Of a DNA stretch of 64,000 nt, positions 4,173 through 62,830 are shown piece by piece. The notes under the pieces are model-generated. The model was not told where the DNA came from, ran no database searches, and was given only the letters and a program-made list of their open reading frames with translations. Positions within the stretch are counted from its first letter, which is position 1. Each line of letters begins with the position of its first letter. Both the position numbers and the translations under genes were made by a program. The stretch lies in the NCBI GenBank assembly GCA_900290255.1, contig OMOD01000121.1, forward strand, positions 1 to 64,000, read 5' to 3'. Source of the DNA: Candidatus Sulfotelmatobacter kueseliae (GTDB lineage: Bacteria; Acidobacteriota; Terriglobia; Terriglobales; Acidobacteriaceae).

Positions 4173-4201
4173 GTCATCCTGAGCGAAGCGAAGGATCTAT
4201 G
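4173..4201. repeat. Short GTCATCCTGAGCG repeat
   Basis: GTCATCCTGAGCGAAGCG followed by AAGGATCTA directly follows the dehydrogenase gene. The same words recur at 6835 and, in reverse orientation, at 31296-31324. They also start the long hairpin elements at 14208, 28758 and 50122, so this looks like a truncated member of that family. Confidence 0.7.
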
Positions 4202-4213
4202 TATTTCCGGCAG

Positions 4214-4336
4214 GTTGCCCCACCCTTGTCGCGTTTTGCGCGACAGGGTGGGGATTTTCGTTTCGGAGATAAGAAAATTCAACGTCAAAAACCCCACCCT
4301 GTCCCTGCAAGAAGCGCAGGGACAAGGGTGGGGCAA
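4214..4336. repeat. Double-hairpin inverted element between convergent genes
   Basis: A 123-base element whose ends are exact inverted copies (GTTGCCCCACCCTTGTC at 4214-4230 and its complement at 4320-4336). Each half also folds by itself: CCCCACCC...GGGTGGGG at 4218-4253 and a second hairpin at 4292-4333. It sits between two convergent genes, 13 bases from the stop of the minus-strand gene, so it may serve as a bidirectional terminator, although there is no U-tract. The bounded, inverted-end layout also fits a small non-autonomous mobile repeat. Confidence 0.75.
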
Positions 4337-4349
4337 CCCAATCAGAAAT

Positions 4350-6305
4350 CTATTTCATCAGTTCGCCGGTAGACTCAAACCGTACTCCGGCCACCAGTGC
4401 GCCGGACGCCAGCACTTCCCGGATGCTGGCCCGATTCGGCCCGGCCTGAGCGATGGCCGCGTACAGACAGCGCAGGGCCTCGTCCACAGGAGTTCCTTCC
4501 GGCAGGCGGAAGATCCAGGGAATGTTGGTTGAGGTCAGCGCGCGGTCGGAGGAAATGGCCACGACCGGCACGAACGACTTCACCCCAATCTGTTCGGCAA
4601 GATGGCTGGAGTTGCGGTCGAGCGCGATCAGCGCCAGCACATGGTCCTGATAGACAGCCTTGACCAGGTCAGCGGAGGCCTTGCCCCAGGAAGATTCGGA
4701 AGGGATTGGGATCAGCGAGAGATGAACTCCCGGCTGTCGAGCTTCGCTCGACTGGACGGGCGAGGGCGCCCGTCCCCACATGGGCGCTGCCACTCGCGGC
4801 TGTCCCCACATGAGTGATTTCACCACTTCACCGGCATGAGGCCCGAAGACTCCGATCTTGAGATCGTTTGACTTTTCGTCAGGCAGCGCCGGACCGGCGT
4901 ATTGGACGCCGTTTTCACCGACGCGGGCATAGGCCTTTTCCATGGTGATGCGGCGGTAAGAAATCGTCCCGTTGTGCACGCGGCCGAGATACATCGGCGC
5001 GATGTTCTTGCAGTTGGGATCGAAAACCAAGTCGCCGGTAACGCCTTTGTAATTTTCGATTCCGGTGAGCGCGTCGCGAATGCGGCCCCGGTTCAAGCCC
5101 GCGCGGCAGATGGCGTCGAGCAGAATCTGCATGGCATCGTAGGCCAGCGCGGCGAAGTGATCGGGCGCCTCGTGGAACCGCGCTTGGTAGCGAGCGACGA
5201 AATCCAGCCAGCGCGGATCGGCGCGAGTGGGATCGTACGGGTAGACAGCTTCGAAGCCTTCGGCCGCGGGTCCAGCCAGCTTGATGAGTTCGTCGCCGGC
5301 TGTACCGGAAATCGTGCGATGGCTGCCGAACACGCGCTGCCTCATGCCCAGTTCCCGCATTTCCTTGAGGATTTCTGCGGTCGGGCCGATATCGGCCCAG
5401 ATCACGACGGCATCCACTCGCGAATCTTCGATGACCGCGAGCTGGCGGCGGAAGTCGGTGTCGCCCGGCATGAACTTCTGCTCGATCACCACCGGATGCC
5501 CGAGGCGGCGGGAGGCGTCGCGGAATTTCAGCACGCCGAAGCGGCCGTAGCGGTCGTTGATTCGTAAAATCGCAACCCGTCTAAAGCCGAGCTCCGTATA
5601 GATGTGCCGCGCCAGCGTGTAGCCTTGCACGCGATCATCTTGAATATTGGTGAAGTACCACGGGATGATGGTTTCGGGAATGGTGGGATCGGTCGAGGCG
5701 CTGTTGACGATCGGCGTCTCGGCTTTCAGCGAAAGGCGAAGGGCGATGTGCGTAGATTCCGCACTGATGGAGCCGAACATGGCCCAGACTTTGTCGTCGT
5801 AGATCATGCGGACGGCATCGTTTGAGGCCGCGCCCCAGATGGCGGAATCTTTGGCAACTCCGGTAGCGGCGCTTTGATTCTGCCAGTTGTTGTAGTCGTT
5901 GTGCGTGATGAGGCGGAAGGGTTTGCCACCATAGCCGCCGGCGGCGTTGGCCTCATCAATCGCCATGGTCGCGCCATTCAGCATGCGATTGCCCAGCACC
6001 TGGTCGGGGTGGTCGCGGAGCGGGGCCAGAAAGCCAATGCGAATCTCGTCGAGATCCTTGAGGTCAGGGTCAGGGATGTCGCGGGCGGCGCCGTTGTATT
6101 CGATGAGGTTCTGATAGTACTCGTAATAAGGCTTGGCGTACTTCGAGAACGGACGCAAGTCGTCGGGCGCGCCGGCATAAGGCTTGAGCGAACGGGGCGC
6201 GGGCGGGCCGGGCGGGTTTTTGCCGCACGAACAGGGAGCGGGCGTCTGCGCCCAGGCCGCGCCGGTCAGCACAGCCGTCATCACGAGAGCATTCACGAGA
6301 CGCAT
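4350..6305 (-). CDS. Receptor-family (Leu/Ile/Val-type) solute-binding protein, double-lobed and interrupted by a repeat
   Basis: A 651-residue exported binding protein of the branched-chain-amino-acid receptor type. Residues 1-19 are a signal peptide ending AWAQ; the start ATG has AAAGGAG upstream (an earlier in-frame ATG at 6398 does not). Residues ~75-420 form one full periplasmic binding fold (GFLAPLRDHP, then NDYNNWQ and FGSISAEST). Residues ~525-640 resemble part of a second such fold. The linker at ~508-523 is encoded by a palindromic repeat element found elsewhere in the window. No permease or ATPase genes are nearby, so it may be a sensor or orphan. Such proteins also occur in PQQ-alcohol-dehydrogenase-associated clusters together with YVTN proteins (family knowledge); no dehydrogenase is seen here. 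Confidence 0.75.
   Translation of the reverse strand: MRLVNALVMTAVLTGAAWAQTPAPCSCGKNPPGPPAPRSLKPYAGAPDDLRPFSKYAKPYYEYYQNLIEYNGAARDIPDPDLKDLDEIRIGFLAPLRDHPDQVLGNRMLNGATMAIDEANAAGGYGGKPFRLITHNDYNNWQNQSAATGVAKDSAIWGAASNDAVRMIYDDKVWAMFGSISAESTHIALRLSLKAETPIVNSASTDPTIPETIIPWYFTNIQDDRVQGYTLARHIYTELGFRRVAILRINDRYGRFGVLKFRDASRRLGHPVVIEQKFMPGDTDFRRQLAVIEDSRVDAVVIWADIGPTAEILKEMRELGMRQRVFGSHRTISGTAGDELIKLAGPAAEGFEAVYPYDPTRADPRWLDFVARYQARFHEAPDHFAALAYDAMQILLDAICRAGLNRGRIRDALTGIENYKGVTGDLVFDPNCKNIAPMYLGRVHNGTISYRRITMEKAYARVGENGVQYAGPALPDEKSNDLKIGVFGPHAGEVVKSLMWGQPRVAAPMWGRAPSPVQSSEARQPGVHLSLIPIPSESSWGKASADLVKAVYQDHVLALIALDRNSSHLAEQIGVKSFVPVVAISSDRALTSTNIPWIFRLPEGTPVDEALRCLYAAIAQAGPNRASIREVLASGALVAGVRFESTGELMK
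4736..4782. repeat. Palindromic repeat inside a coding sequence (copy A)
   Basis: Two adjacent hairpins, GTCGAGCTTCGCTCGAC and GGACGGGCGAGGGCGCCCGTCC, followed by CCACATGG. The copy at 8065-8112 matches nearly base for base, with compensating changes in the second stem. It lies inside the solute-binding protein gene and keeps the reading frame open, encoding an MWGRAPSPVQSSEAR segment. A partial copy of its tail (GGCTGTCCCCACATGA) follows at 4798-4813. Confidence 0.85.
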
Positions 6306-6328
6306 GGTGCTGCTCCTTTGCCGTGTCC

Positions 6329-6811
6329 TTACTCTGCCGGCGATTCGCGCCGGAACATAGCAATCGCTTCGATCTCGACCAGAAGATCCGGCCGGCAAAG
6401 AATCGCCTGGATTCCCGTCGATGCAGGCAGGGGATCGAGCTTCTGCTCACGATAGAAAGCGCTGCGCTCTTCATTAAAGGCGTGATAGTCGCGCTCGATG
6501 TCGCGCAGATAGCAGGTAGTGCGAACGACGTCATGCCAGGTCGCGCCTTCCGAGGCGAGCAGCTTGGTGATGTTGTCGTAGGTGCGCCGGACCTGCGCAC
6601 GCAGGTCGCCGACGTGCACGGTTCTGCCGTGATCGTCTATGCTCGCGGTTCCCGAGATCAGCAGAATCGTCAGCCCCTTCAAGTCAATGCGCATGCCGCG
6701 GGAAAAGGCGCTGCCATAATCGTAGGCTTCGTTCAGCGCGGTGTGATTGGTGATCGCCCGCTTCACGATGGGCGCGGTGGCCACTTCTGCGAGTAGTTCG
6801 TGAACATTCAT
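6329..6811 (-). CDS. Rid (YjgF/YER057c/UK114) family protein
   Basis: A 160-residue protein of the Rid superfamily, members of which hydrolyse reactive enamine/imine intermediates or act on related small molecules in the cytoplasm. The C-terminal part has the family pattern RTTCYLRDI...PASTGIQAILCRPDLLVEIEAIA, including the conserved Arg of the active-site region. It is about 30 residues longer than RidA itself at the N terminus, so a strict RidA assignment is not safe. GGGAG precedes the ATG. It is 23 bases upstream of the solute-binding protein gene on the same strand, suggesting co-transcription. Confidence 0.75.
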   Translation of the reverse strand: MNVHELLAEVATAPIVKRAITNHTALNEAYDYGSAFSRGMRIDLKGLTILLISGTASIDDHGRTVHVGDLRAQVRRTYDNITKLLASEGATWHDVVRTTCYLRDIERDYHAFNEERSAFYREQKLDPLPASTGIQAILCRPDLLVEIEAIAMFRRESPAE

Positions 6812-6834
6812 AAGAATGACTCCCTGTTCGTGCT

Positions 6835-6918
6835 GTCATCCTGAGCGGCGCTCTTGCCGCGAAGGATCTATGTAGTTGGCGGCCAATTTCACAGGTCCTT
6901 CGCTCGCTCAGGATAACA
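6835..6918. repeat. Inverted GTCATCCTGAGCG / CGCTCAGGATAAC repeat
   Basis: An 84-base element with GTCATCCTGAGCG and GAAGGATCTATGTAG on the left, and AGGTCCTTCGCTCGCTCAGGAT on the right, inverted relative to each other. It fills the gap between the propeller gene and the Rid gene and belongs to the GTCATCC family. It may end transcription of the propeller operon or separate it from the Rid-binding protein pair. Confidence 0.7.
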
Positions 6919-6926
6919 AGCCAGCC

Positions 6927-8150
6927 TTACTTCTTGTCTGTCACCTGCTTCACATCAACAACGTTCGGATTAAGAACTCGTGCTGTCCGCCCAGCATCTT
7001 TCTGGCGGATGCCGTGACTCAATCCCTTGGCGGTCGCGACCCAGAGGTCGTCACCCTGAAAGTCCACCCCGAGAATATAGTTGTGCGCTGGAGCGGTCTG
7101 CACTGGGACGCTCTTCACCTTGCCGCTCGCGTCGCGCACCAGCATCTCCGGCTTGTGGGTGCCGAGCGCGGGACGGTACACAGCCCAGTTTGTGCCGTCG
7201 TAGTAAGCCAGACCCTTGTCGGTCGAGAACCAGGCGCGATTCGCATCCACACCTTTGACCTGGTTCAGAAAGTCGCTGGGCAGGCCGCTATCTTTCTGCA
7301 GAAAGTTGTGCCAGTAGCGGCCGTCGTAGCGGCTGGCGCCGAAATAAGTCGCGACCCACAGGATTTTGTCCACATAGCTGACCGAAGTGGTGATCTCGTG
7401 AATCAGCCCCTGATCTTTCATGAGCACGAGTTCGGTCTCGCCGTCGGGATCGTTGTAGTCCTTCCAGTGCTCGGTCTTGACGTCGTATTCGAGGACGCCG
7501 CCTCCCCAGACGGCGTAATAGACCTTGTCTTCAGCGGGACTGACCGAGTAGGTCCAGATTTCGTACATGGGAGTGTTGCGGTTGTTGAACAGATCCCACT
7601 GTCCAGTGCGGATGTTGAGGCGGCTGGCGCCGGCCGCAGTCGCGGTCCAGATGAAATCGCCCTGTACGCCGACTCCGTAGACCACGTCGTTGCTCAGGCC
7701 GGAGTTCAGCTGCGTGAAGGTGTCGATGCGCCCGGCCGAGATGCGGCTGAGTCCACCCATGGTTCCGGCCCAGATGTCGCCGGTGCGCTTGTCAAGCGCG
7801 AGGGAGAGCACGGCCTGGTGCGCCAGGTCGTCAGCCGGTCGAAAGATTTTCCACGCGCCGTTTTCGTAGAGACCTAATCCGTTCTCCGTGCCAGCCCAGA
7901 TGCGGTTGCCATCCACGAGAACGCAGAAGACGTGATTGTCGGGCAAGCCATTGGCGGTGGTGAAGTTTTCCCAGCGGAAGCGGGGAAGGTCCTGGGCAGC
8001 GGCCAGGGATGCGAGTAGCAGGACAAGCGTGGCCAGCGAAAGAGCGCGAGCGGGTAAATGCGCCGTCGAGCTTCGCTCGACCGGACGGCCGAGGGCGGCC
8101 GTCCCCACATGGTTCCTTCCACAGACTGAGAGCCAGATTCGCCGTTTCAT
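6927..8150 (-). CDS. Exported Reg_prop-type beta-propeller protein with a repeat-altered signal peptide
   Basis: A 407-residue protein built of repeated ~45-residue blades such as NGLPDNHVF...IWAGTENGLGLY, DIWAGTMGGLSRI and ANRAWFSTDKGLAYYDG. These are the two-component-regulator propeller repeats, here without kinase or other output domains. A hydrophobic signal-peptide core lies at residues ~36-52 (ending LAAAQ), unusually far from the start because residues ~13-29 are encoded by the palindromic repeat at 8065-8112. The start ATG overlaps the upstream gene's stop (ATGA), which supports it. Its role is unknown; position says it works with the periplasmic heme proteins encoded upstream. Confidence 0.75.
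   Translation of the reverse strand: MKRRIWLSVCGRNHVGTAALGRPVERSSTAHLPARALSLATLVLLLASLAAAQDLPRFRWENFTTANGLPDNHVFCVLVDGNRIWAGTENGLGLYENGAWKIFRPADDLAHQAVLSLALDKRTGDIWAGTMGGLSRISAGRIDTFTQLNSGLSNDVVYGVGVQGDFIWTATAAGASRLNIRTGQWDLFNNRNTPMYEIWTYSVSPAEDKVYYAVWGGGVLEYDVKTEHWKDYNDPDGETELVLMKDQGLIHEITTSVSYVDKILWVATYFGASRYDGRYWHNFLQKDSGLPSDFLNQVKGVDANRAWFSTDKGLAYYDGTNWAVYRPALGTHKPEMLVRDASGKVKSVPVQTAPAHNYILGVDFQGDDLWVATAKGLSHGIRQKDAGRTARVLNPNVVDVKQVTDKK
8065..8112. repeat. Palindromic repeat inside a coding sequence (copy B)
   Basis: Same element as at 4736-4782: GTCGAGCTTCGCTCGAC then GGACGGCCGAGGGCGGCCGTCC then CCACATGG. It is read in a different frame from copy A (giving HVGTAALGRPVERSSTA) and pushes the signal-peptide core of the propeller protein away from the N terminus. 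A diverged relative of its tail (CTGTCCCCACATAGTTGC) occurs at 19704-19730. Confidence 0.85.
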
Positions 8151-10063
8151 AACGTTTTCAAATACTCGACCAGATCGTTCAATTCATCTTTGGTCAGATC
8201 GTTGGTTACCCCGTGCGTATCCTTGGGGTTGAACACGGTCCAGATTTCCTCGAGCGAGCGCGCCGAGCCATCGTGCAGGTAAGGCGCGGAATAGGCTACG
8301 TTGGGAAGTTGGGGCACGTCAATCACCGGCGAGCGATCGGTGAGTTTGCCGGTGCCGACATCGATTTGGCGCTGGTTGGTGTACTTCGGCCCGCTGTGAC
8401 AATAGCTGCACTGACTGTCTTCCGGAATCGCCATGCCGTTTTTCGTTTTCGTGCGCTCGAAAATGGCCTTGCCACGCTCCTGGGCCGCGGTCAGCTGACC
8501 ATTGGCGAGGCGGTAGCGGTTGGGACGGTAAGGAAGCGAATAAACGAAGGTCACCAGATCGGTGAGCTCCTGCGGAGTGAAACTCTGCGAACGGTAAAAG
8601 AATTTTTCCGTCCGCGGGCCACACTCGGTCGGCATGTCAGGATTGCCCCCGTTCCATTTGAACGGCTCGGTGCCGGCGAGATCTTCGAGTGAACGGTTGT
8701 CCACGATGTCTTTGCCGAAACCGTCGGGCTCGAGGTCCCATTGCAGACCGTCGATGGTGGCGTCGAGATGGCAGTTGGAGCAGCCAAAACCGCCCTGGAA
8801 AGCGAAGTCGGCAGTGTAGAAAAGACGCTCGCCGCGGCGGAGGGCGTCGGCCGTTTTCGGCCCGCCGAGACCCATCGTTGAAACAACCTGAGCTGAAGTC
8901 GTATCAATCACCGCGATGTCGTCATCCAGGCGGTTCGCGACGTAGAGCCGCTTGCCGTCGGGCGAGAGCACCACGCCGCGCGGATTGTGGCCGACGGGAA
9001 TTCGCGTCAGCACATAATCAGCCGACGCGGAAAGATCGTTGACGAAGGATGTGGCGCGGGCACTCTTGCCCGCGGGGGCGCGCCGCGTCCGCACGGTTTT
9101 GAGCAGGCGAGAAACGTCAATCACGGTGACGCTCTCGGCTCCCGCGGTGGTCAGAAAAATCTTCGATTTGTCGGGCGCGATTGCGACTCCCCAGGGCAGA
9201 GCGTAGTAGCGGTCGAGTTCGTCGAGCGGAATCTGAACGGGTTCGCCGACATCCTCTCCGAACAGAGTCAGAGAATCGCCAAAGACCCAGCCGTGCTCGA
9301 CGTGAGCGAGCGGAATCAGATTCTTGGGCCGGAGCTGCGCCACTACGCCCAGCCTGCCGTCGGCCGACAGCGCCACGTGAAATACCCCCGCCACGTTGTG
9401 CAGCGGTTTGCGCTCGACCACGATTTGGCGCGCGGTATCAATGACTGTGATTTCTGAATTCGGTGGCGTGCGATGCGCGCCCGGGTTGGGATAGATGTGC
9501 GTGCAATAAACCTGCTTGCCGTCGGGAGACAATGCGAGGTAGCTGGCGCCGCGCCCGGCCAGCAGTCGCTTCGCTTCCTGGCCGGCCCTGAGGTCGATGA
9601 CCGAAACATCGCCGCTCAGCCGGTTGGCGACGTAGAGCGCAGTGCCGCTGCGATCGGCGACAACGCCGGCTGGTTCAAATCCTGTGGGCAGGGTCTCGAC
9701 GACTTTCAGCGACGTTGTATCAATCACCGACACGCTATCGGACCAGGCGTTGGTGATGTAGAGCTGGCGGCCGTCGGGTGAAATGGCGATGCCGCGCGGC
9801 ACGTGGCCGACCGGGATGCTGTTCTCGACCTTGCCCGATTGCACATCGACGACGCGGACTTCGTCGCTGCCCTCGCACACGACGTAGAGCAAGCGGCCGT
9901 CGGAGGAAAAAGTCATCTCGATCGGGGAGAGATAACGCTCGCGGATCGCTGGTGCCTGCCTGGCCGCGGGCTGGGCTGCGATTCCAATGAGGGCCGCGGC
10001 AAGGATGGCAGTGATTCTGGCGCCGAGCCAAATACGCGCTCGAATTGTGGAGCATGCCTGCAC
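8147..10063 (-). CDS. YVTN beta-propeller fused to di-heme cytochrome c peroxidase-like domain
   Basis: A 638-residue exported fusion. Residues ~15-35 are a signal/anchor helix. Residues ~45-390 are YVTN-type blades (SPDGRQLYITNAWSDSVSVI, SPDGKRLYVANRLDDDIAVI). The C-terminal ~230 residues carry two c-type heme sites, CSNCH near residue 428 and CSYCH near 550, with the VPQLPNVAYSAPYLHDGSA segment typical of the MauG/CcpA di-heme family. It would act in the periplasm in electron transfer or peroxide reduction. The start is GTG, with GGAGGAG six bases upstream, immediately after the preceding gene's stop. It sits in a translationally coupled operon with other heme or propeller proteins. Confidence 0.85.
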   Translation of the reverse strand: MQACSTIRARIWLGARITAILAAALIGIAAQPAARQAPAIRERYLSPIEMTFSSDGRLLYVVCEGSDEVRVVDVQSGKVENSIPVGHVPRGIAISPDGRQLYITNAWSDSVSVIDTTSLKVVETLPTGFEPAGVVADRSGTALYVANRLSGDVSVIDLRAGQEAKRLLAGRGASYLALSPDGKQVYCTHIYPNPGAHRTPPNSEITVIDTARQIVVERKPLHNVAGVFHVALSADGRLGVVAQLRPKNLIPLAHVEHGWVFGDSLTLFGEDVGEPVQIPLDELDRYYALPWGVAIAPDKSKIFLTTAGAESVTVIDVSRLLKTVRTRRAPAGKSARATSFVNDLSASADYVLTRIPVGHNPRGVVLSPDGKRLYVANRLDDDIAVIDTTSAQVVSTMGLGGPKTADALRRGERLFYTADFAFQGGFGCSNCHLDATIDGLQWDLEPDGFGKDIVDNRSLEDLAGTEPFKWNGGNPDMPTECGPRTEKFFYRSQSFTPQELTDLVTFVYSLPYRPNRYRLANGQLTAAQERGKAIFERTKTKNGMAIPEDSQCSYCHSGPKYTNQRQIDVGTGKLTDRSPVIDVPQLPNVAYSAPYLHDGSARSLEEIWTVFNPKDTHGVTNDLTKDELNDLVEYLKTL

Positions 10064-18402: not shown

Positions 18403-19671
18403 ATGCCCGCCAACTCCTCTCCTTCATCACGAGTCGCACCCTATGTTCTGATGGCCGCGGTGGCCCTGGTCGTCCGGCTGGCCGTCATTCCCTTCGTTTA
18501 CGGCGACTGGATGGATCCGTTTGTGCTGCAGCATTGGGCGTTCGGCCTGGTCGCGCGCTCGATTGTCCTCGGACACGGATTCGGAAACGTGTTTGCGGAA
18601 ACCGGGCCGACGGCAGTTCTGCCGCCGGTTTACACCTACCTGCTGGCAGGAATCTTCAAGATTTTCGGGATTGAGACCAAGGCCGCGGTGCTGGCCGCGC
18701 TTGCGCTGAACAGCCTGTTTTCGGCCTTGACGTGTGTGCCGGTCTTCCTTTTCGCCAGGCAGGCTCTCGGCCCGCGCGTCGCCAAGTGGGCGGGCTGGGG
18801 ATGGGCGTTCTCTCCCTACGGTGTTTATTACGGCGCAGACTGGGCCTGGTCGACTTGCCTGGTCACGCTCGAACTGGCCTGCCTGTTTTTGTTTGCCTGG
18901 CGGCTGGAAAGCTCCTCGCGCACGCGCGATTGGCTGCGGTTCGGTTTTTTCGGCGGGATCGCCGCGCTGACCGAGCCGGTCGTGCTGTCGGTGATTCCGT
19001 TGCTCGGGATTTGGACGATCTATCAACTTTACCGCCAGAAGCGGCCGTGGAAAATGCCTCTGGCGGCTGCGGCTTTGGCCGCGATTGCGGTTCTCTCACC
19101 CTGGTTCGTGCGGAATTACGAAGTCTTCCACCGCTTCATTCCCGTGCGCAGCGGCTTCGGGCTGGAGTTCTACATGGGTAACAACGGTTATTCCACGCGC
19201 TGGGTGAACAGCAGCCTGCACCCGAATCACAGCGACGCCGAACTGGCCGAATACGAGCGCGTGGGCGAGATCGCTTACATGGATCACAAGCTGAAACAAG
19301 GCAAAGAATATGTGCGCAGTCATCCTGGGTGGTTTGCCTGGATGACCGGCCGCCGCATCGTCTACGTGTGGACCGGCTACTGGAGTTTCGATCGCGCCTA
19401 CTTGAAAGACGAACCGCTCGATCCCCCCAACATTCTTGTGGATACGACCCTGACCATCCTCGGACTGCTGGGCCTGCGGCGGGTCTTTCGCCGCGATCGG
19501 GCGCTGGGCGCGCGTTTTGCCATCGTGCTGTTCTTCTTCCCGCTCGCCTATTACTTCACCCATTGCGAGACGTACTACTTTCGCCCGGTGGATCCGCTGA
19601 TTGTGGTGCTGGCGGCGGTGTTCGTGGCGGGAGGGTCGCGGCACGCGGTCGAGCCTGGCTCAATCGGATAG
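18403..19671 (+). CDS. GT39/ArnT-like membrane glycosyltransferase
   Basis: A 423-residue membrane protein with ~10 helices. After helix 1 comes VVRLAVIPFVYGDWMDP with acidic residues in the first periplasmic loop, then GNVFAETGPTAVLPPVYTYL, the layout of the PMT/ArnT superfamily that transfers sugars from polyprenyl-phosphate donors. The YEVFHRFIPVRSGFGLEFYMGN stretch (about residue 235-255) is common in bacterial members. I use the ATG at 18403, 11 bases after the preceding stop; a longer frame starting at 18283 lies within the previous gene. The acceptor is unknown. Confidence 0.75.
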   Translation: MPANSSPSSRVAPYVLMAAVALVVRLAVIPFVYGDWMDPFVLQHWAFGLVARSIVLGHGFGNVFAETGPTAVLPPVYTYLLAGIFKIFGIETKAAVLAALALNSLFSALTCVPVFLFARQALGPRVAKWAGWGWAFSPYGVYYGADWAWSTCLVTLELACLFLFAWRLESSSRTRDWLRFGFFGGIAALTEPVVLSVIPLLGIWTIYQLYRQKRPWKMPLAAAALAAIAVLSPWFVRNYEVFHRFIPVRSGFGLEFYMGNNGYSTRWVNSSLHPNHSDAELAEYERVGEIAYMDHKLKQGKEYVRSHPGWFAWMTGRRIVYVWTGYWSFDRAYLKDEPLDPPNILVDTTLTILGLLGLRRVFRRDRALGARFAIVLFFFPLAYYFTHCETYYFRPVDPLIVVLAAVFVAGGSRHAVEPGSIG

Positions 19672-19796
19672 CCCTGTTCGGCTCGCTCCGCTCGCTCAGG
19701 GCAGACTTGGCGGCTGTCCCCACATAGTTGCTTCCACAAACTCGAAGACCGCCCATGCCTCCCGCGCATTGCGGCCTGCCGCCAGCGCGGTTTAAC

Positions 19797-42804: not shown

Positions 42805-42835
42805 GGAGAAGAAAACAGAGTATCAGAAGCCCGCC

Positions 42836-42864
42836 GTGTGGGCGCGGGCGACTCGCCCGCGCGG
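42836..42864. repeat. Left inverted REP repeat
   Basis: 29 bases beginning GTGTGGGCGCGGGCG; exact reverse complement of the right copy. Confidence 0.9.
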
Positions 42865-42865
42865 T

Positions 42866-43408
42866 TTAGGGTGCAGACTCAATCAGCTTTTCATCCCACC
42901 ACAGCCAACGATACTCCGCAGGGGTCGCTGCCAACCCTGCCCGAACGGGATTCTCCAAAATGTACCTGGCCTTTTTCCTGAGGCTTTCGTCGCCACGCAA
43001 AATATGGTCGAAGGATTCATCCTGCCAAACTCGCCCTATTCTCGCCAGGGCCTTGTTAATTCGATGGGCCGATTCGCTCTTGATGGTTCGAGTGATTTCC
43101 GGGATAGAGATGGAGCCGTTTTCGTCCACGAGCGGTATGCAAATCAAATGAACGTGATCTGGCATGACGACCGCCGCGTAAAGTGAATATTTCCTGCCAT
43201 CGGCGCGTCGGCACGAGTCTAGCGCTAGATCCATGGCGATCTCCGGCAGCTTCCAACGATGCCATGTGGAGTAAGTGATGAACAGGATTCGGTTGTCTTT
43301 CTGGTAGTGGGGGAGATAACGGCGATATTCGTATTTCCTGTACAACGTGAGAGGAGAGTACCACTTGGCAGCCGCGCGGGCGAGTCGCCCGCGCCCACAC
43401 GAGCACAT
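42866..43408 (-). CDS. REP-associated tyrosine transposase (Y1_Tnp, IS200-like)
   Basis: A single-strand HUH-type nuclease of the RAYT group. VVMPDHVHLI has the HVH metal-binding pair; KKARYILENPVRAGL holds the catalytic tyrosine helix (family assignment of the Tyr in ARYI). FITYSTWHRW starts the fold. The ORF from ATG 43408 reads 543 bases, but its first ~14 residues are encoded by the right REP repeat; the conserved part begins at about YEYRRYLPHYQ, so the true start may be later (a TTG near 43354). No frameshift is visible and the domain looks intact. Nicks and moves REP hairpins in related systems. Confidence 0.85.
   Translation of the reverse strand: MCSCGRGRLARAAAKWYSPLTLYRKYEYRRYLPHYQKDNRILFITYSTWHRWKLPEIAMDLALDSCRRADGRKYSLYAAVVMPDHVHLICIPLVDENGSISIPEITRTIKSESAHRINKALARIGRVWQDESFDHILRGDESLRKKARYILENPVRAGLAATPAEYRWLWWDEKLIESAP
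43372..43400. repeat. Right inverted REP repeat
   Basis: 29 bases ending CGCGCCCACAC; lies within the 5' end of the transposase ORF. Confidence 0.9.
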
Positions 43409-62611: not shown

Positions 62612-62692
62612 GCAATTCGATTCTAACAGGAGGGCGCGCGAAAGCGAGGTTGCCCCTGTAATACTCGGCCGAACGCAGGCGGATGGCAGGGA

Positions 62693-62754
62693 GGGCGGAC
62701 GAGGGCGTCCGCCCCTCCACAAATCATGGAGCCCCGGACGCCCTCGTCCGGGGG
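62693..62754. repeat. Paired inverted GGACGAGGGCGTCC hairpins
   Basis: GGGCGGACGAGGGCGTCCGC (62693-62712) and CCCCGGACGCCCTCGTCCGG (62733-62752) are each palindromic and inverted relative to each other. They share the GGACG..CGTCC core of the repeat inside the genes at 4736 and 8065. They lie between the divergent mfd and BNR-repeat genes. Confidence 0.75.
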
Positions 62755-62830
62755 GAATTCTCCGCCCCAGAACCAGACCCAGCAGAATGTGCGAAAATAT
62801 GCGAGTTCAATCATCCATCTGGGGTGGATC

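Follow-up and report, generated by a model that had tools for sequence, protein, structure and literature searches.

The analysis covers a stretch that we call the window, the initial 64 kb of contig C81 (OMOD01000121.1) in the Candidatus Sulfotelmatobacter kueseliae draft genome (198 contigs totalling 5.39 Mb; completeness 96.1%). Two minus-strand genes of the window, encoding a periplasmic binding protein (gene 1) and a Reg_prop protein (gene 2), each carry a copy of one palindromic element that belongs to a dispersed and probably mobile repeat family. The features at the locus, with scores from a covariance model (R2) of the element, are as follows.

4350..6305, minus strand: gene 1, periplasmic binding protein (Pfam Peripla_BP_6, E 9e-47), an open reading frame (ORF) with its ATG at 6305
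4736..4782, plus strand: element copy 1, two stem-loops and a CCACATG tail, within gene 1 (pattern match; R2 80.1 bits)
4797..4812, plus strand: apparent truncated second copy, CGGCTGTCCCCACATG, in gene 1 (read in the sequence; tail match with one mismatch at 4801-4811)
6927..8150, minus strand: gene 2, Reg_prop protein (Pfam Reg_prop) with a signal-peptide-like leader read by eye; ATG at 8150
8040..8132, minus strand: 93-nt segment gained in gene 2 relative to congener G181 (leaders compared; ends placed by eye)
8065..8111, plus strand: element copy 2, within the gene 2 leader (pattern match; R2 85.9 bits; lacking in 13 of the 15 gene-bearing congeners)

Both copies match a 47-nt pattern with zero mismatches (4736-4782 and 8065-8111). 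The pattern has no third site in the window within 3 mismatches and no match in 100 shuffles, and across the whole genome 51 copies were found at up to 3 mismatches versus 0 for a reversed-pattern control. An earlier reading of the window from its letters alone (the sequence-only reading) had proposed near-identical elements translated in two genes in two frames, and this held: the Peripla_BP_6 gene reads its copy as MWGRAPSPVQSSEAR and the Reg_prop gene as HVGTAALGRPVERSSTA, with both frames open. The start of gene 1 lies one codon earlier in the reference sequence (6308), and the ORF list places a TTG start at 6398. In gene 2 the ATG at 8150 overlaps the stop codon of the upstream gene and the only other common start codon in the leader is a GTG at 8108, inside the element; with either start, most of the element is predicted to be translated.

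Model searches, all of them with R2 (built from 30 copies), revealed at least 150 matches in the genome at E up to 0.01, a lower bound reflecting the 150 matches scored out of 5386 first-look candidates. After one weak 35-nt match was dropped, flanks were fetched for 127 of 149 matches, leaving 22 without fetched flanks. A column profile of 109 aligned copies (18 of the 127 left out) delimited a conserved core of about 50 nt, columns 5-56, between flat flanks. The core comprises two hairpins, one with 7 bp and a TTC loop, the other with 9 bp and a loop of 4 nt, together with a CCACATG tail; its foot is CATGTGGGGAC. Pairing was counted in 111 full-length copies (16 of the 127, not 65 nt long, were left out): across 16 pairs, or 1776 cells, 1737 were Watson-Crick, 12 were G-U and 27 were neither. 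Several pairs differ on both sides among the copies, and both stems covary almost purely by Watson-Crick exchange; the second-stem pair 33/42, for example, is C-G in 90 copies, G-C in 12, A-T in 6 and something else in 3, confirming the proposed compensating change that keeps the hairpin. Because G-U intermediates are so few, the covariation suggests that the hairpin matters as DNA rather than as RNA. Its conservation is no evidence of a role in genes 1 and 2, since nearly all of the 111 copies pair and most of them are not in-frame coding. A longer right arm was considered, but the column profile and a flank search support at most about 11 nt of it, in one other copy. An earlier model, R1, was discarded before any search because its structure was mis-registered, whereas R2 pairs correctly. 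CATG occurs in the tail of 51 of the 111 copies.

The element also occurs beyond this genome. An R2 match at E up to 1e-8 was found in 55 of 150 genomes drawn from the family, own genome included, and the 43-nt family consensus has exact matches in 21 named contigs with acidobacterial titles throughout, 11 of them Candidatus Sulfotelmatobacter; Terriglobia, named in one of these titles, are Acidobacteria.

Comparison with orthologues supported insertion into coding DNA, as orthologues without the repeat also lack the residues it would encode. None of the 15 gene 1 orthologues with the loop region carries this element; 12 have no insert, and those of G189, G154 and G187 have longer loops of other sequence. 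A wider orthologue set held one more, different insert, in L101 of G033. The gene 1 loop has 26 residues here versus 11 in G181, and about 11 ancestral residues were replaced for a net gain of 15, so that the simple insertion first supposed for this gene gives way to a replacement; in addition, at 4797-4812, a distance of 30 nt from copy 1, lies a truncated second copy, probably a remnant of another element. In an AlphaFold2 model of gene 1 (mean predicted local distance difference test (pLDDT) 75.8), residues 502-526 fall below pLDDT 50 between a confident helix and a confident strand and hold the lowest ten-residue confidence block of the model. The element residues, 500-524 (the residue numbering has one extra in front), coincide with this stretch, which fits a tolerated loop in the predicted structure and gives no sign of a function. 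The domestication claimed by the sequence-only reading thus finds no support.

Gene 2 is present in 16 of 45 genomes of the genus, own included. Leaders are 21-39 residues long in 9 of the 15 congeners; G152, G154, G187 and G189 have longer leaders of sequence other than the element, and G175 and G184 have the element itself in the leader (60.7 and 68.9 bits). Against the G181 leader, MKKRIW-FATLVLL, the leader here reads MKRRIW, then 31 residues, then LATLVLL. The gain is therefore 31 residues (93 nt) and not the roughly 17 first estimated, with copy 2 accompanied by flanks of about 21 and 25 nt that are hardly common to other copies. All three element-bearing leaders are 53 residues long, which had suggested a single insertion shared with G175 and G184; as judged by eye the element is offset by 4 residues, and the copies may or may not share descent.

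We then asked how often the element lies in coding sequence. ORFs of 120 aa or longer contain 64 of the 127 copies, and 24 copies, in 23 ORFs, have same-frame coding-like sequence on both sides by a hexamer score, which took the place of a codon-based score abandoned for its poor separation of frames. Gene 2 is outside these 24, having too little gene sequence upstream of the element, and eight lower-scoring spanning ORFs, three with Pfam matches (ParB, amidase, PAD) and five without, were likewise excluded from the count. The 24 coding copies occupy all six frames (9, 4, 3, 3, 3 and 2), extending to the whole genome the frame tolerance claimed from two copies. Pfam matches at E up to 0.001 were obtained for 21 of the 23 ORFs, one of them weak, and 10 of the 24 copies fall inside a single Pfam domain match: MnmE (two in one gene, one in another), AIR synthase, UvrD, aminotransferase, MutS, ABC ATPase, MnmG and QueA. 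Flanks were in the same frame versus another frame of the same strand at 17:5 or 24:9, where 1:2 is expected (p 1.5e-4 to 3e-7 over six settings), with the other-frame class inflated by gene borders. Stop codons interrupt 59 of 762 frames versus 179 expected from shuffles, and because the element is poor in stop codons in any frame it is readable in whichever of the six it lands.

Element-bearing genes include mutS, uvrD, uvrC, mnmE, mnmG and queA. Repair or tRNA-modification ORFs (MutS, UvrD, UvrC, Lhr, MnmE twice, MnmG and QueA) made up 8 of the 23 element-bearing ORFs versus 0 of 30 neighbour genes (Fisher p 6e-4), and 6 of 22 without Lhr and the second MnmE (p 0.004). The sample is small, and the grouping was applied after the Pfam scans and with the repair emphasis of Di Nocera et al. 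(2013; PMC3733652), as far as that paper was available, known beforehand. The controls were the first 30 of 79 eligible neighbour genes after a seeded shuffle; four have no Pfam match, and two are tRNA synthetases, not counted although the accessible text of PMC3733652 mentions genes of that kind. At the mutS site, model matches were found in 3 of 8 congeners with the region (G155 58.6, G152 34.8 and G156 31.6 bits, versus 83.9 here). For queA, orthologues have empty sites: the model matched in none of 13 relatives, and two of these have their own, longer loops. Two side observations concern these genes. The G152 mutS copy (L273:2058-2121) looks like a decayed element whose frame differs from that of the own-genome copy at the same site, and mnmE occurs twice in G000 (contigs C105 and C71) with element copies in both, a duplication that may stem from the 8.46% contamination of the draft.

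The element is also associated with genes for RAYT/TIRYT-type transposases. A Pfam search of the genome gave 11 Y1_Tnp matches, of which 10 score above the cut-off. Good element copies flank the RAYT gene on contig C1 both upstream and downstream; the core of the upstream one stops 3 nt short of the in-frame ATG. We considered the element tail as a start-codon donor for this gene and rejected the idea, as the ATG of the tail is not in the frame of the gene, whose in-frame ATG comes after the tail. Among the best 30 of 41 genomes with a C1-like RAYT, own included, an element match (E up to 0.001) lay within 300 nt of the RAYT gene on both sides in 14 loci and on one side in 10, and the nearest pair around the gene in the 14 two-sided loci was inverted in 9 and direct in 5. 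In 83 control loci, totalling 348 kb, the model matched 6 times at E up to 0.01; mutS loci account for five of these matches, and three are at the mutS site itself. The RAYT genes most like that of C1 tended to have the strongest element matches, L244 being an exception.

Together, these data lead us to interpret the segments, with a probability of about three in four, as a non-autonomous palindromic mobile repeat of the repetitive extragenic palindrome (REP)/terminal inverted repeat (TIR) kind that RAYT/TIRYT transposases mobilize and whose coding insertions survive only in frame and at tolerant places. The family, its covariation, its absence from orthologues, its in-frame bias and its association with RAYT genes are observed; movement by RAYT, neutrality of the added residues and their translation are what the sequences would imply. 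In the proposed mechanism, RAYT/TIRYT transposases (Y1, HUH), whose genes the repeat adjoins, would spread it in trans, and the repeat would insert in genic and intergenic sequence alike. An insertion into coding sequence would presumably be lost where it disrupts the frame or the fold, and in-frame insertions in a leader or loop could survive and be translated in any of six frames.

Several points weigh against this interpretation. It is drawn from sequences alone, with no transposition event observed, and we found no target duplication and no junction rule; the ends of the gene 2 insert match no other copies. The copies were collected with a model of the same structure, biasing the set towards paired copies, and the draft genome is 8.46% contaminated. 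The hexamer score is imperfect (the right frame scored best in 258 of 297 held-out windows), and the shortage of stop codons derives partly from G+C richness and the relatedness of the copies. Five further stretches of the gene 1 model also fall below pLDDT 50. The association with RAYT genes is uneven: 6 of the 30 loci have no match within 300 nt, a limit chosen after the matches had been seen, and a match of at least 37 bits is present in only 10 of the 30; the query RAYT was itself picked for its adjoining element, and the weaker matches may be other palindromes with a similar foot. The motif GGGGWSAS is exact in only 61 of the 111 copies, with one relaxed letter in 23 and neither form in 27, and both window copies read GGGGACGG, the relaxed kind.

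The rival explanation that we take most seriously, though we consider it unlikely, is that the repeat is mobile but was spread by another agent, such as a different transposase or template switching at palindromes, with RAYT genes being merely frequent landing sites. The lack of any junction signature tied to RAYT activity would be expected on that account, the same genome holds further palindromic repeat families, and CGTC repeats have no known transposase in the available description (PMC3733652); however, 14 of 30 genomes have the RAYT gene flanked by matches at either side, and this, with the trend, L244 excepted, for the strongest matches to accompany the most C1-like RAYT, argues for the RAYT connection. 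A chance or convergent palindrome in two unrelated genes is conceivable in a genome so rich in G+C, but the shuffles (0 of 100), the reversed control (0 genome-wide) and the aligned orthologues without the element refute it for practical purposes.

Two further alternatives assign the segments a function in place, and both appear improbable. A cis-acting RNA feature (a terminator, attenuator or mRNA-stability hairpin) might overlap coding ends by chance without any insertion of a mobile repeat. The hairpins fold stably (z about -3.4 to -3.8; -3.4 for the DNA fold of copy 1), the gene 2 copy lies near the junction with the upstream gene, and the available portion of PMC3733652 states that many of the N-terminal REPs might be extragenic, with a post-transcriptional action. 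Such a feature would hardly account for copies that fall inside domain matches, those of MutS, UvrD and QueA among them, and that occur in either orientation and in six frames, and G-U pairs fill only 12 of the 1776 cells; no Rfam family reached its gathering score anywhere in the window. At slightly longer odds still, the residues might be functional, domesticated parts of the proteins, with the peptide under selection, perhaps for a part in secretion or in binding a ligand. In favour of this, the element stays in frame, and G175 and G184 also have a copy in the gene 2 leader. Yet the use of six frames means that no single peptide is kept, the element is missing from 13 of 15 congeners in gene 2 and from all 15 orthologues in gene 1, mutS-site matches in congeners are weaker than the one here, and the gene 1 residues fall in the low-confidence loop of the model.

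A mobile repeat of the REP/TIR kind has close counterparts among known systems. REPINs and RAYTs are reportedly such a system, with a hairpin repeat linked to RAYT, in the likeness of the element here. The partly available literature on TIRYT transposases (PMC3733652, PMC6006769) describes them for Acidobacteria among others, with flanking repeats containing GGGGWSAS, and reports one Koribacter versatilis TIR as a repeat family. The TIR repeats and TIRtrons of Di Nocera et al. (2013, PMC3733652) are likewise acidobacterial repeats that flank RAYT-like genes, contain GGGGWSAS and have dispersed copies. Here, the element flanks RAYT-like Y1 genes on both sides, one side or neither in 14, 10 and 6 of the 30 loci, and the consensus foot GGGGACAG fits GGGGWSAS, the window copies being of the relaxed kind; HVH and YxLENP motifs are present in the transposase, a candidate member of the TIRYT group. 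The likeness rests on the published description and motif, as available, rather than on TIR sequences, and the portions available do not describe intragenic TIR copies, whereas the element here also lies within genes; a further difference is the direct orientation of the nearest pair in 5 of the 14 two-sided loci.

Intragenic GTAG/CGTC REPs, as described in the available text of PMC3733652, are small palindromes in ORFs, proposed to lie in linkers or loops, with many in DNA-repair and some in tRNA-modifying genes, as with the element here. The element differs in having two hairpins and neither a GTAG nor a CGTC head, and in being linked to RAYT, unlike CGTC repeats. GTAG is on neither strand of the consensus of the 111 copies, and instead of a CGTC, TGTC or CCTC head and a stem beginning with A or T, the 9-bp stem starts with GG preceded by GRCC; stem length 9, loop 4 and a CCA tail do agree with the CGTC description, so far as it was available. 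Rickettsia palindromic elements (Ogata et al. 2000; known to us in part, via PMC10969869) also lie in frame in unrelated genes, but are about 150 bp long and each encode one conserved peptide; the element here is about 50 nt long, and its 24 coding copies are spread over six frames. Intragenic REPs, the idea of their placement in loops and their frequency in DNA-repair genes (PMC3733652), as well as acidobacterial TIR families, are thus already published, to judge from the parts of these sources available. Our literature searches found no paper on palindromic repeats in Sulfotelmatobacter; on RAYT or REPs in Acidobacteria they returned nothing nearer than PMC3733652 and PMC6006769, and in the text accessible we found described neither a RAYT-linked repeat in all six frames of such genes nor homologous protein sites hit by different repeats. 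The element therefore represents a well-documented new family of a known sort, translated repeats being known from other bacteria. The published oddity that intragenic palindromes are common in DNA-repair genes recurs here in a repeat linked to RAYT, and it can now be tested in many genomes.

Homologous protein sites also appear to be used by more than one repeat. In G189, a repeat, GGGTGCCCCAC...GCGAGAC, with 107 places within 3 mismatches in that genome, lies in both gene 1 (C28:9342-9372) and gene 2 (C28:5949-5979). G033 has a 22-25-nt repeat in its gene 1 loop and gene 2 leader (L101:3252-3273 and L117:1386-1407; 22 nt, 95% identical). With the genome studied here, this makes three genomes in which one repeat family occupies both genes at both places. 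Repeat identity in G152, G154 and G187 was judged by eye, and a pattern search returned no G152 leader. We tentatively suggest, at somewhat less than even odds, that certain protein sites are recurrent landing pads at which unrelated repeats insert in frame in different genomes. If this is true, together with RAYT mobilization, repeat insertion would be a steady source of new protein loops, biased to DNA-repair and tRNA-modification enzymes. Empty, filled and decayed sites, with different repeats at one protein position, make this one genus a clean natural experiment on small mobile repeats passing through coding DNA.

The window holds further palindromic features, four of which are listed here.

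9053..9079, minus strand: palindromic in-frame insert APAGKSARA, 9 residues, in the next gene (beta-propeller/cytochrome c), from an alignment with 14 congeners
42835..42864, plus strand: palindromic terminal repeat by the window RAYT gene (perfect 30-nt inverted pair; R2 25 bits, E 9.5e-6)
42866..43408, minus strand: RAYT/TIRYT-type Y1 transposase gene (Pfam Y1_Tnp E 8e-7; HVH and YILENP motifs)
43372..43401, minus strand: palindromic terminal repeat on the other side of that gene (perfect 30-nt inverted pair; R2 24 bits, E 1.6e-5)

The APAGKSARA columns are absent in 13 of the 14 aligned congeners, and G166 has five other residues there; the insert is another repeat, so that three genes of this stretch carry palindromic inserts. 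The palindromes at 42835-43401 are weakly related to the element, and this region is probably a TIRtron of another subfamily. An ARAGORN scan found no tRNA. A GTCATCCTGAGCGAAGCGAAGGATCT repeat at 4173-4198, with 49 places in the genome within 3 mismatches, looks like a CGTC-type REP, and an inverted repeat pair with GTTGCCCCACCCTTGTC was seen by eye at 4214-4340, between convergent genes. Weak element-model matches occur at 19640-19736 and 62658-62788, the latter as an inverted pair where a 1224-aa ORF resembling Mfd has its 5' end.

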